A stretch of 36,696 nucleotides of DNA from Chitinispirillaceae bacterium (lineage in GTDB: Bacteria; Fibrobacterota; Chitinivibrionia; Chitinivibrionales; Chitinispirillaceae). The notes under the pieces are model-generated. The model did no database searches. It saw nothing but the letters and a program-made list of their open reading frames with translations, and was not told where the DNA came from. Location: NCBI GenBank assembly GCA_016932075.1, contig JAFGDP010000098.1, positions 1-36,696 of the forward strand, written 5' to 3'. Positions 6,263 to 24,747 of this stretch are shown one piece after another; position 1 is the stretch's first letter, and the number at the start of each line of letters is the position of its first letter. Position numbers and translations under genes: made by a program.

Positions 6263-7018
6263 ATGCTAAGTTACAATTTCAAGCAATCGGTCCTTTCGCC
6301 GATTGACCTGGTTGATTTCGGCTCCCGGCTTTCTCATATAGCCGGGCCGCGGATCAGCCAGGAACCTGACGGCGAAACCGTGACCAACGCAGTGTCGGCC
6401 GCGACCAGGACGCTGTCCATAGCGACTGATCGCGAAAAATCCAACCCGGTCACCGCGCAGATACATGCCATGGACGCGATCCGTGACAATGACCTGCTCA
6501 TGATCCGGGACACCATCAAAACAAACACCCACAATGTCAAAAATCCTGAGGCTCAGGAAGCCGCCACGGCCCTGCTTGAGGTGTACCTCCAGCATGTCCC
6601 GAACCTCAGCGACATGGGGCTCGCCGCCGAAAGCAAGGCGGTGAACAACCTCATTGACAGCTTGACGGGCAATGGGAACAGGGAAAAGTGCGAGCTCATC
6701 GGGCTCGTACCGCTCGTCGAGGGGCTTGCCCAGACCCAGGAAAAGCTTGAGGCGCTCTATGTCGAGCGCACCAGGCTCGAACCTGAGCTGGAAAAGCTCA
6801 CCATCACCAATGCCTCCCAGGCGGCCGCAGACGCGATCCGCGCGTTCCTCGGGTTCGTGGATGTCATGGTCGCCGCGGGCAAAGACGGCGCCGCGGAGCT
6901 CGGCGATGAGATCAGCCGCATCCTCACGGACGTGGAAGCCATCGCCCGGGCCCGCAGGACCAAGCTGCATAACGGTGATAATGAAGGGGCGGACCAGACA
7001 ACGACGCAGGCAGCTTGA
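6263..7018 (+). CDS. All-helical protein, DUF6261-like
   Basis: This 251-residue soluble protein has no signal peptide or membrane segment. It is almost entirely predicted helix, rich in Ala, Glu and Leu, with heptad-like patches (for example EGLAQTQEKLEALYVERTRLEPELEKL near residues 153-180). The length and helical layout resemble DUF6261 proteins of Bacteroidetes and relatives. This is a resemblance from memory, not a motif match, and the function is unknown. The start is well supported by AAAGGAG. The gene is monocistronic: an AT-rich upstream region precedes it and a rho-independent terminator follows within 30 bases. It is more GC-rich than its flanks, as expected for a real coding region. 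Confidence 0.75.
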   Translation: MLSYNFKQSVLSPIDLVDFGSRLSHIAGPRISQEPDGETVTNAVSAATRTLSIATDREKSNPVTAQIHAMDAIRDNDLLMIRDTIKTNTHNVKNPEAQEAATALLEVYLQHVPNLSDMGLAAESKAVNNLIDSLTGNGNREKCELIGLVPLVEGLAQTQEKLEALYVERTRLEPELEKLTITNASQAAADAIRAFLGFVDVMVAAGKDGAAELGDEISRILTDVEAIARARRTKLHNGDNEGADQTTTQAA

Positions 7019-22325: not shown

Positions 22326-22496
22326 TTATTCCGGCGCCACGAGAAACCCGATAATCGCTCCCACGATAATCCCTGACCAGGGATTTGAGGTAAGGGGTCA
22401 GGTTATGCCAGCAGCGGGAGTGCAGTGCGACAGAAAGGTCAAGCCCCATCCAATCGCACCGCCGATCACCACGCCAAGCCATTTTTTCCAGAGCAT
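22326..22496 (-). CDS. Candidate selenoprotein: two-helix membrane protein with in-frame TGA
   Basis: This 56-residue protein is read through one TGA (22398-22400, residue 33) taken as selenocysteine. Layout: helix 1 (about 6-22, WLGVVIGGAIGWGLTFL), a loop with Cys25 and Sec33, then PLTSNPWSG and helix 2 (about 42-54, GIIVGAIIGFLVA), ending in TAA. Small two-helix membrane proteins of the DUF6132-like type carry a Cys directly before P-[IL]-T-S-N-P; here the TGA occupies that position. The sequence after the TGA continues the family pattern to a normal stop, which a true stop codon would not predict. GGGAG lies four bases before the ATG. A SECIS-like hairpin follows the TGA. It is third in an operon after thioredoxin and an FmdB-like protein (56-base gap). 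The alternative is a pseudogene or a TGC/TGT-to-TGA sequence error. The family name is from memory. Confidence 0.82.
22368..22385 (-). promoter_or_regulatory. Bacterial SECIS-like hairpin downstream of the TGA
   Basis: On the transcript, AAUCCCU pairs perfectly with AGGGAUU around a GGUC loop. The stem begins 12 bases and the loop 19 bases after the UGA. In E. coli fdhF the SECIS loop is also GGUC, about 18 bases after its UGA. Bacterial SelB recognises the G and U of this loop. The hairpin lies entirely within coding sequence. Confidence 0.83.
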
Positions 22497-22552: not shown

Positions 22553-22738
22553 TCACGAGAACCCCGACCCCGACGAACAGGAGGTCTTGGCTCCATAAAA
22601 ACCGGCAACGACAGAGATTGTGCGGTGCGTTTTCAGGGAAGAGCACTCGGCGCACGGAGGGTTCTCCGTACTTCCCACCGGCATAAGCTCCTCGAATTTT
22701 GCCCCGCACTCTTCGCACTCATATTCATATAACGGCAT
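22553..22738 (-). CDS. FmdB-like zinc-ribbon protein
   Basis: This 61-residue protein begins MPLYEYECEECGAKFEELMP, the FmdB signature, with a second Cys pair in PCAECSS and an RTISVVAGFYG segment typical of the family. The four cysteines would bind zinc. The name comes from a regulator-associated open frame near formamidase genes; the general role of the family is not established. The tail (TSCSSGSGFS) is shorter than many members, which end in a Cys/Gly/Ser-rich stretch. AAGGAA precedes the ATG and overlaps the thioredoxin stop region (14-base gap). It lies between thioredoxin and the selenoprotein, so co-transcription is likely. Confidence 0.88.
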   Translation of the reverse strand: MPLYEYECEECGAKFEELMPVGSTENPPCAECSSLKTHRTISVVAGFYGAKTSCSSGSGFS

Positions 22739-22752
22739 AGCAATAATTCCTT

Positions 22753-23064
22753 TTATGACGCTAACGCGTTCATGTAGACCTTTTCGGGTTGCACGCCGAC
22801 AAACTCTTTGTCCACCTGCCCGTTTTTGAAAACGATCACCGTAGGTATCCCGGTAATCCCGTATTTTCCCGCAATGGCGGGATTTTCATCAACGTTCAAT
22901 TTGAAGACCTTTGCCTTTCCTTGGGTCTTCTCACTGATGCTGTCCAATATCGGCCCTACCATCCTGCAGGGACCGCACCACGGCGCCCAGAAATCCACAA
23001 GTACCGGCAGATCAGAATCAAGCACATCCTGCTTGAAGTTCTGGTCAGTTGTTGCGTTTGTCAT
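22753..23064 (-). CDS. trxA: Thioredoxin
   Basis: This 103-residue cytoplasmic disulfide reductase has the canonical active site FWAPWCGPCRM (residues 25-35), the VDENPAIAGKYGITGIPT segment with the cis-proline, and a FKNGQVDKEFVG end strand. The length and all key residues match thioredoxin 1. AAGGAGG sits close before the ATG. It is the first gene of a three-gene unit (thioredoxin, FmdB-like, selenoprotein) behind a sigma-54 promoter. Many genomes carry several thioredoxins; this one is probably a dedicated partner of the operon rather than the housekeeping copy, an inference from context. Confidence 0.96.
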   Translation of the reverse strand: MTNATTDQNFKQDVLDSDLPVLVDFWAPWCGPCRMVGPILDSISEKTQGKAKVFKLNVDENPAIAGKYGITGIPTVIVFKNGQVDKEFVGVQPEKVYMNALAS

Positions 23065-23101: not shown

Positions 23102-23117
23102 TGCAATCAATATGCCA
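23102..23117 (-). promoter_or_regulatory. Sigma-54 promoter of the thioredoxin operon
   Basis: On the minus strand the sequence is TGGCATATTGATTGCA, matching the -24/-12 consensus TGGCAC-N5-TTGCA with one mismatch and exact spacing of the invariant GG and GC. Transcription would begin near 23091, giving a 5' leader of about 27 bases that carries the thioredoxin ribosome site. Confidence 0.82.
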
Positions 23118-23205: not shown

Positions 23206-23274
23206 TTGTTATATAATTAATGATATATTGGATTTTTCTGGACCTTGTTATTATTATTTAAAATAAAAAGCAAA

Positions 23275-23327
23275 TGTTGCATAAACATGTTGCGCAACAA
23301 TATGCAACACAGAGTTATGTTGCGCAT
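23275..23327. promoter_or_regulatory. Clustered TGTTGC/GCAACA half-sites, probable activator sites
   Basis: Four elements lie within 53 bases: TGTTGCAT (23275), the perfect palindrome TGTTGCGCAACA (23288-23299), ATGCAACA (23302) and TGTTGCGCAT (23318). They sit 160-210 bases upstream of the sigma-54 promoter and just before the activator gene. This is the usual arrangement for enhancer sites of a sigma-54 activator. They may also mediate autoregulation. Confidence 0.78.
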
Positions 23328-23364
23328 ACTATTTTTCAAAAAAATACATCTATGGAGCCATCTC

Positions 23365-24747
23365 ATGGACTGTTTTCTCCAAGACCATCTCAATCCTGAA
23401 TGCTTTGAAAAAATTCTCCAGACAGTGGCCGAGGGGGTTATTGTTATTGACTCTTATGGGATCATACGATACAGCAACAGGTCCATGGAGATTCTTACCG
23501 GTCTTTCACGGGACGAACTCAATGGCAAACCGTGCGAATCGCTTTTTACCGAACATGGCTGTCCCATTCAATCGAGCGACCTGCTGTCAAAAGAGGTTCT
23601 TGAGGGCAGGGAGTGTTTCCTCACGCATACCACAGGCCGGACGGTGCCGGTAATCCGAAACGGGAGACTGCTCAAAGGCGCTGACGGCGCGGTAATCGGC
23701 GCGGTGGAGACCTTTGCCGATATCAGCATACTGCAGTCGGCCCAGAACCGTCTCAAGCATCTTGAAGAGCAGTTTCGTACCGACCGCTCCGGCCGGCTCA
23801 TCGGGAAAAGCGCTGCCATGCAGGAAATTTTCAATCTTATCTCACTGGCCGCCGCGTCCAATGCAACGATACTGGTGAACGGCGAAACCGGTACCGGCAA
23901 AGAGCTGGTTGCCCTGTCGATCCATGAAAAGAGCGGCCGCGCTGAGGCGCCGTTTGTAAAAATCAACTGCTCGGCCATACCGGAATCGCTTCTCGAGAGC
24001 GAGCTCTTCGGCCATGTCCGGGGATCATTCACCGGAGCGATACGCGACAAGATCGGCAGGTTTGAATCGGCGGACACCGGGACCCTCTTTCTTGACGAAG
24101 TGGGTGAGCTCTCTCCCCTTATCCAGGTCAAGATTCTCCGTTTTCTGCAGGAAAAGGAGTTCGAGCGGGTGGGCGAGTCCGTGACCCGCAAGGCCGACGT
24201 TCGGATCATCGCGGCGACACACCGTGATCTGCGGCGCATGGTCCGGGAAGGCAGGTTCCGCGAGGACCTTTACTACCGGTTAAAGGTGTTTCCAATTTTC
24301 ATACCGCCGCTTCGCGAGCGCAAAGAGGATATAGGCCCGCTCATCGATCATTTTATCGCCAGGTTCAACGCCCAGACCGGCAAATCGATCAAGGGACTGA
24401 ACCACGATGCCGCGGTCACCCTGATGGATTACTGCTGGCCCGGCAACATCCGGGAGCTTGAAAACGCCATCGAACACGCTTTTGTGACGTGTCGAGACGA
24501 GCTGATCGACCTCTTCGACCTGCCGCTTGAAATCAGGCGGGTGGAACTGAGAAAGGACGTATGCCGGTCGGTACCGGAAACGCAGCATGCTCCGGCCGGG
24601 GTTTCCGGGCCTGTCAGACGCCATCGAGTGTCGGGCGAGGAGATACGGCGGGCCTTCCAGGAAAGTAATGGCAATATGAGCGAAGCAGCGCGTATACTTG
24701 GTGTTGACCGGACAACGGTGTGGAGGTGGATGAGAAAAAAAGGCTGA
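23365..24747 (+). CDS. PAS-containing sigma-54-dependent transcriptional activator
   Basis: This 460-residue bacterial enhancer-binding protein has a PAS domain (about 15-125), with GVIVIDSYGIIRYSNRSMEILTG and the cysteine-containing HGCPIQ and ECFL elements. The AAA+ domain (about 146-375) has NGETGTGKEL as Walker A, GSFTGA as the sigma-54 contact loop (GAFTGA variant), GTLFLDEVGEL as Walker B and NIRELENAIEHA. A C-terminal Fis-type HTH (about 430-458) ends with GNMSEAARILGVDRTTVWRW. I start at the ATG at 23365, preceded by GGAG; an upstream in-frame start at 23245 would run through the half-site cluster. The gene is divergent from the thioredoxin operon, its likely target. The signal sensed is unknown; redox sensing through PAS cysteines is a guess. 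No receiver domain is present. Confidence 0.94.
   Translation: MDCFLQDHLNPECFEKILQTVAEGVIVIDSYGIIRYSNRSMEILTGLSRDELNGKPCESLFTEHGCPIQSSDLLSKEVLEGRECFLTHTTGRTVPVIRNGRLLKGADGAVIGAVETFADISILQSAQNRLKHLEEQFRTDRSGRLIGKSAAMQEIFNLISLAAASNATILVNGETGTGKELVALSIHEKSGRAEAPFVKINCSAIPESLLESELFGHVRGSFTGAIRDKIGRFESADTGTLFLDEVGELSPLIQVKILRFLQEKEFERVGESVTRKADVRIIAATHRDLRRMVREGRFREDLYYRLKVFPIFIPPLRERKEDIGPLIDHFIARFNAQTGKSIKGLNHDAAVTLMDYCWPGNIRELENAIEHAFVTCRDELIDLFDLPLEIRRVELRKDVCRSVPETQHAPAGVSGPVRRHRVSGEEIRRAFQESNGNMSEAARILGVDRTTVWRWMRKKG

Follow-up and report, generated by a model that had tools for sequence, protein, structure and literature searches.

A likely selenocysteine form of the small membrane protein DUF6132, encoded beside a thioredoxin gene in Chitinispirillaceae

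The window analysed here, a 36,696-nucleotide stretch of a Chitinispirillaceae contig, carries on its minus strand a 56-codon frame that opens with ATG, closes with TAA, and contains a single internal stop, a TGA (Table 1). Translated through this codon, the frame reads MLWKKWLGVVIGGAIGWGLTFLSHCTPAAGIT-U-PLTSNPWSGIIVGAIIGFLVAPE, where U denotes predicted selenocysteine (Sec). With cysteine in place of U, the product scores 30.1 bits against the Pfam family PF19628 (curated cut-off 23.2, E=3.9e-7) and, judged by that cut-off, is a DUF6132 protein. Cys25 and the predicted Sec33 are spaced C-x7-U in the window protein and C-x5 to C-x7 within the Sec-containing group; the common DUF6132 form is C-x4-C, a spacing that the window protein lacks and that is no Pfam criterion. 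Upstream on the same strand lie genes for an FmdB-family protein and a thioredoxin, the latter preceded by a promoter-like box and a divergent activator gene.

Table 1. Features of the DUF6132 locus, with positions in the window.
Feature	Position	Strand	Evidence
56-residue DUF6132 frame read through the TGA, with predicted Sec33	22326..22496	-	translation; PF19628 above cut-off; seven homologs with the same TGA codon
SECIS-like hairpin AAUCCCU-GGUC-AGGGAUU, also encoding N-P-W-S-G	22368..22385	-	folding, alignment, synonymous constraint
TGA within the frame, aligned with the DUF6132 Cys; predicted Sec codon	22398..22400	-	translation; Cys in homologs
Codon of Cys25, the invariant Cys predicted to pair with Sec33 (C-x7-U)	22422..22424	-	no variation among the 23 or the 54 sequences aligned
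FmdB-family zinc-ribbon protein, second cluster gene, Cys codons, ordinary TGA stop	22553..22738	-	TIGR02605 above cut-off
Thioredoxin (WCGPC), first cluster gene	22753..23064	-	TIGR01068 above cut-off
Sigma-54-type promoter TGGCATATTGATTGCA, 11/11 consensus positions, starting 53 nt before the thioredoxin ATG	23102..23117	-	match to the consensus
Divergent sigma-54 activator (PAS, AAA, Fis-type HTH)	23245..24747	+	domain search

Single-sequence searches with the read-through product returned no match, and it was the family profile that found relatives. In the window itself no Rfam family scored above its cut-off and ARAGORN called no tRNA, and an exact 27-mer from the DUF6132 gene was absent from viral contigs. 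The nearest relative by arginyl-tRNA synthetase (ArgRS) is a Fibrobacter sp. metagenome-assembled genome (MAG), whose enzyme is 66% identical to that of the window; a Fibrobacteria MAG follows at 57%, and no other match exceeds 45%. The organism is therefore likely a member of Fibrobacterota. The phylum of the nearest relative, represented by 167 genomes, was taken as our sample. That relative (G001) encodes SelA, SelB, SelD and tRNA-Sec, and has no DUF6132 match.

Searching these genomes with PF19628, stops being read through, yielded 23 matches in 22 genomes. Seven contain a single TGA (G022, G023, G024, G035, G036, G038 and G040), two contain a single TAA, which the translations place past the last protein residues, and 14 contain no stop; G024 carries a Cys form besides its TGA form. 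One of the 14 stop-free matches, a 428-residue frame in G090, is unlike the others and was the only match left out, so that the alignment of 23 sequences comprises eight Sec-type genes (the window and seven relatives) and 15 Cys-type genes. The TGA occupies the identical codon in all eight Sec-type genes, and all 15 Cys-type genes encode cysteine there. Seven positions (G12, G16, C25, C/U33, P39, G46 and G50) are invariant across the 23 sequences, and remain so across 54 when 31 of 120 listed database proteins are added. Those proteins come from a search with the 23-row profile, which scored 7994 proteins and returned 6906 with E up to 1e-3; all 120 listed of the 6906 have the C-x4-C pair, with cysteine at the TGA position. 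The first-pass annotation had placed an in-frame TGA at a conserved cysteine of a DUF6132-like protein, and the translation, the PF19628 score and these homologs confirm it.

The frame is conserved beyond the TGA. Among the eight Sec-type genes, codon pairs encode the same residue in 207 of 364 comparisons after the hairpin versus 382 of 843 before the TGA, so conservation is no lower past the TGA than upstream of it. This argues against the TGA being a genuine stop that releases a 32-residue peptide, the downstream half being a separate or regulatory element. The upstream half alone would be plausible as a single helix, and the hairpin could act as a regulatory RNA; the 15 Cys-type homologs of the phylum, however, are full length, and tRNA-Sec is present in all seven TGA genomes, which makes this account very improbable.

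More improbable still is a pseudogene or sequencing error, in which a TGC or TGT Cys codon became TGA, either through inactivation of the gene or through a miscalled base. Both codons are one base from TGA, and the two named relatives of Fibrobacter type were assembled from metagenomes, but the TGA recurs at the same codon in eight separate assemblies, and the residues that follow it are retained while their codons change synonymously. PF19628, moreover, matched in 85 of 395 genomes from the phylum of a Porphyromonas MAG, and none of the 89 matches contains a TGA (one contains TAA). Base error or frameshift had been named at the outset as what could undo the candidate, and the shared codon speaks against both. 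Reading of the TGA as another residue (e.g. Trp), by suppression or an altered code, is scarcely credible, for nothing but the open frame was found to favour it, while cysteine stands at this position in the 120 homologs listed and TGA cannot have been reassigned wholesale, since it terminates six of the 21 frames regarded as genes in the window.

The first-pass annotation also described a perfect SECIS-like hairpin after the TGA. A hairpin is indeed present there, and the term conserved coding hairpin suits it better. It begins 12 nt past the TGA; its isolated 24-nt segment has a folding energy of -8.3 kcal/mol (z -2.40), and in a 50-nt fold of the window sequence alone a different pairing is preferred, with z only -0.47. 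On folding predictions, the single window sequence would not be convincing, but comparison with the seven other genomes is. The motif A[AG]TCCCTGG[TG]CAGGGAT follows the TGA at equal distance in all eight Sec-type genes and in none of the 15 Cys-type genes of the phylum, with 15 of the 17 DNA alignment columns (16-32) invariant and the other two each differing in one sequence. Its codons read N-P-W-S-G, except that G024 has Ser in place of Asn and G038 has Ala in place of Ser.

No compensatory change was seen at any of the six pairs, because the hairpin is nearly invariant; as this lack of variation deprived covariation of any power to prove the hairpin, synonymous constraint was used instead. 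Among codon pairs encoding the same residue, none of 98 in the hairpin's five codons differs synonymously; the corresponding counts are 41 of 61 for the four codons preceding the hairpin and 121 of 198 for those after it. Of the invariant residues, Pro39 and Gly42 are each encoded by a single codon throughout, the remaining invariant glycines by three or four. The hairpin thus shows constraint at its synonymous sites. Chance explains the pattern poorly, since the TGA codon is shared by all eight genes, the 12-mer CCCTGGNCAGGG occurs nowhere else in 118,864 bases (the window, the seven loci and the locus G168 described below), and the synonymous differences number 0/98. We predict that this hairpin is a SECIS element bound by SelB.

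The distribution of Sec-insertion genes is consistent with a Sec reading of the TGA. Some weak tRNA match occurs in every genome, and tRNA-Sec was therefore called by the Rfam gathering score, which was exceeded in 17 of the 167 genomes, including all seven with the TGA gene. SelA is strong in 15 (six of the seven TGA genomes), with weak matches in three more, and SelB is above cut-off in 14 (five of the seven); the hypergeometric probabilities for tRNA-Sec, SelA and SelB are 3e-8, 1e-6 and 4e-5, uncorrected for kinship. SelD, searched for in the 17 tRNA-Sec genomes, is above cut-off in 16, the exception being G038, where neither SelA nor SelB is above cut-off either. The tRNA-Sec of G038 lies 219 nt from a contig end, and in G036, where SelB is likewise below cut-off, a partial SelA stops at base 6966 of a 6973-base contig. 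Contig ends may account for the absent SelB in both genomes and for the absent SelA in G038.

Six of the 17 tRNA-Sec genomes have a SelD with an in-frame TGA of its own. The four such sequences that were read (L062, L063, L069 and L070) place it at U-x-x-K, the Sec motif given for SelD in PMC13188914. In L062 and L063 this TGA is followed by a GGGTC-CTGA-GACCC hairpin, whose loop is unlike that of the DUF6132 gene, a point against the Sec reading of the latter; SelB in those two genomes may accept two types of loop.

Taken together, the TGA at a Cys position, the frame conserved past it, the constrained hairpin and the sel genes in relatives that carry the TGA lead us to conclude that the TGA very probably encodes selenocysteine, in which case the gene would make a small DUF6132 membrane selenoprotein. 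The tiny membrane selenoprotein proposed by the first-pass annotation is thus supported by the equivalence of TGA and Cys, the conserved frame and the hairpin, with Sec itself still a prediction from sequence.

The first-pass annotation mentions neither the thioredoxin cluster, nor the sigma-54-type promoter, nor the G168 locus. A thioredoxin homolog (64-73% identical to that of the window) lies upstream of the Sec-type gene on the same strand in all seven relatives, with 99-393 nt between its stop and the TGA; the window value is 352 nt. Cys-type loci were examined over at most 1.5 kb on either side, where a weaker thioredoxin-fold match (30-42% identity) was found in three of 15 (L020, L023 and L029), one of which, L023, also has an FmdB match. 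An FmdB gene lies close by in four of the eight Sec-type loci, namely the window, L050, L054 and L053, in the last of which it is broken across two frames.

A sigma-54-type box, scored against an 11-position consensus, precedes the thioredoxin ATG by 50-74 nt in seven of the eight loci, five boxes matching at 11/11 positions and two at 10/11; none was found in L052 (G022). Across 224,726 positions (both strands of the window and the seven loci) just eight sites score at least 10, and seven of them are these thioredoxin boxes. The activator gene is divergent to thioredoxin in the window and in L050, L053 and L054 (homologs of 59-61% identity), and was not found in the examined stretches of L051, L052, L055 and L056, of which L051 ends 202 nt upstream of thioredoxin.

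These features suggest how the protein might be made and used. SelB, together with Sec-tRNA, would read the TGA at the downstream SECIS-type hairpin. Two predicted glycine-rich helices would hold a loop carrying Cys25 and Sec33, which could alternate between selenol-thiol and selenenylsulfide states, and the co-encoded thioredoxin would reduce the Cys25-Sec33 selenenylsulfide; the divergent activator probably switches the thioredoxin cluster on through the sigma-54-type promoter. An AlphaFold model of middling confidence (pLDDT 72.3, pTM 0.47) has helices at residues 2-22, 32-36 and 39-53; Cys25 and Sec33 fall between the first and the last of these. The charged N-terminus hints at an outward-facing loop; were the loop outside and the thioredoxin cytoplasmic, an intermediary would be needed. 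We regard a redox role for the DUF6132 Sec protein as tentative, at somewhat short of even chances.

A different function is also conceivable for a real selenoprotein of this kind, namely transport of a metal, or of a sulfur or selenium compound, as by YeeE/YedE or MerT; this would displace the redox role and leave the Sec reading intact. YeeE/YedE and the mercuric transport protein are membrane proteins. Both YeeE/YedE (PF04143, with the Sec motif GUxSG) and the mercuric transport protein (PF02411) are entered as selenoproteins in the table of PMC13188914, and PF04143 genes occur in five of the seven TGA genomes. Against transport, PF04143 is not among the 25 families listed (of 28) for 54 DUF6132 proteins, and the constant neighbour of the Sec-type gene is a thioredoxin. 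A link to YeeE/YedE drawn from a GCxSG resemblance is left unsupported by the same list of families. We consider a transport function possible, if on balance doubtful.

The Sec form resembles the Cys form of DUF6132 in its small size, two predicted helices, glycine pattern, first Cys and T-S-N-P-like stretch, and differs in that TGA replaces the second Cys and in its C-x5 to C-x7 spacing in place of C-x4-C. It also has N-P-W-[SA]-G, fixed by the hairpin; W-S-G occurs in none of the 120 Cys forms listed. The SECIS loop of E. coli fdhF is GGUC, and the arrangement here is similar, with a GGUC-loop hairpin shortly past the TGA and with SelA, SelB, tRNA-Sec and SelD in relatives. In contrast to the Sec forms of YeeE/YedE, to which no profile link appears among the families listed, and of the mercuric transport protein, the DUF6132 protein has a different Sec motif.

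As read here, Sec-type DUF6132 is a new selenoprotein family that would work by known chemistry. Sec usually sits at redox sites, and for this reason the DUF6132 family at large, of unknown function and with 6906 matches, likely has a redox-active Cys pair if the Sec reading is true; the Sec form would then indicate which DUF6132 residue is worth testing. The gene would also add a very small membrane selenoprotein of a kind that gene finders tend to lose, since both halves are too short to call, and in the hairpin an RNA structure would have fixed part of a protein's sequence. Regulation could be approached experimentally through the sigma-54-type promoter and its activator.

DUF6132 is absent from the whole 119-family selenoprotein table of PMC13188914 (2026), some entries of which are unnamed proteins with NCBIfam models, and from passages of PMC12013277 and PMC9312934. 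NCBIfam, run against the eight Sec-type proteins, gave nine families with E up to 1 (best 0.0077), none of them a selenoprotein model. In open-licence literature DUF6132 matched a single paper, whose title concerns EamA (DUF6) and nucleotide sugar transporters and which is not relevant here; PF19628 matched none, nor did Chitinivibrio with selenocysteine. The same PMC13188914 table lists a UxxU selenoprotein form of FmdB. The FmdB gene of the window differs, as it encodes Cys and uses TGA as a normal stop.

In a further phylum, that of a Spirochaetales MAG, profile A2 matched in 19 of 392 genomes, none with TGA and one with both TAG and TAA; profile A1 matched in none of 327 genomes of a third phylum, where an empty answer is uninformative. 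The Sec form may occur elsewhere, for example in Desulfobacterota or other selenium-rich phyla.

A profile built from the eight Sec-type sequences found a further TGA form, in G168 (E=3.3e-4), which is not among the PF19628 matches. Its TGA falls at the same residue, within IGCHGG-U-GLTGNP, and its genome encodes SelA, SelB, SelD and tRNA-Sec. A thioredoxin gene (56%) lies upstream, preceded by a 10/11 sigma-54 box, with three other sites of 9 within the same 6.5 kb; matches to FmdB (40%) and to the activator (42%) lie downstream within 3.5 kb, and the activator is not divergent. The G168 gene has no GGUC hairpin, only weaker ones.

In a 24-row tree the eight Sec-type sequences group together at 100/100, and G168 falls among the Cys forms. 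None of 200 bootstrap trees puts Sec on a single side of a branch, as if only one change were needed; the tree has 56 columns and leaves 15 of 21 inner branches open, the bootstrap is not settled, and the well-supported branches alone are compatible with one Sec origin. We hold the chances evenly balanced that Sec entered the same residue twice, once in the eight-member group, with a SECIS hairpin fixing N-P-W-S-G, and again in G168. Two origins, if true, would mean a selenium-dependent membrane redox module under repeated selection.

Several observations concern the wider setting of these genes. G035 (loci L038, L048 and L062) has two each of tRNA-Sec, SelA, SelB and TGA-containing SelD, amounting to two Sec-insertion sets. 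G004 has tRNA-Sec and SelD above cut-offs and neither SelA nor SelB; missing contigs or contamination are possible. YeeE/YedE-type (PF04143) genes lie within about 2 kb of selD on the same contig in G022 (C322; L102) and G023 (C87; L103), which may point to selenium uptake. The Cys-type DUF6132 genes of L019, L023 and L025 precede a short frame whose early residues include C-P-Q-N-H-x-C-P and which may encode an iron-sulfur protein.
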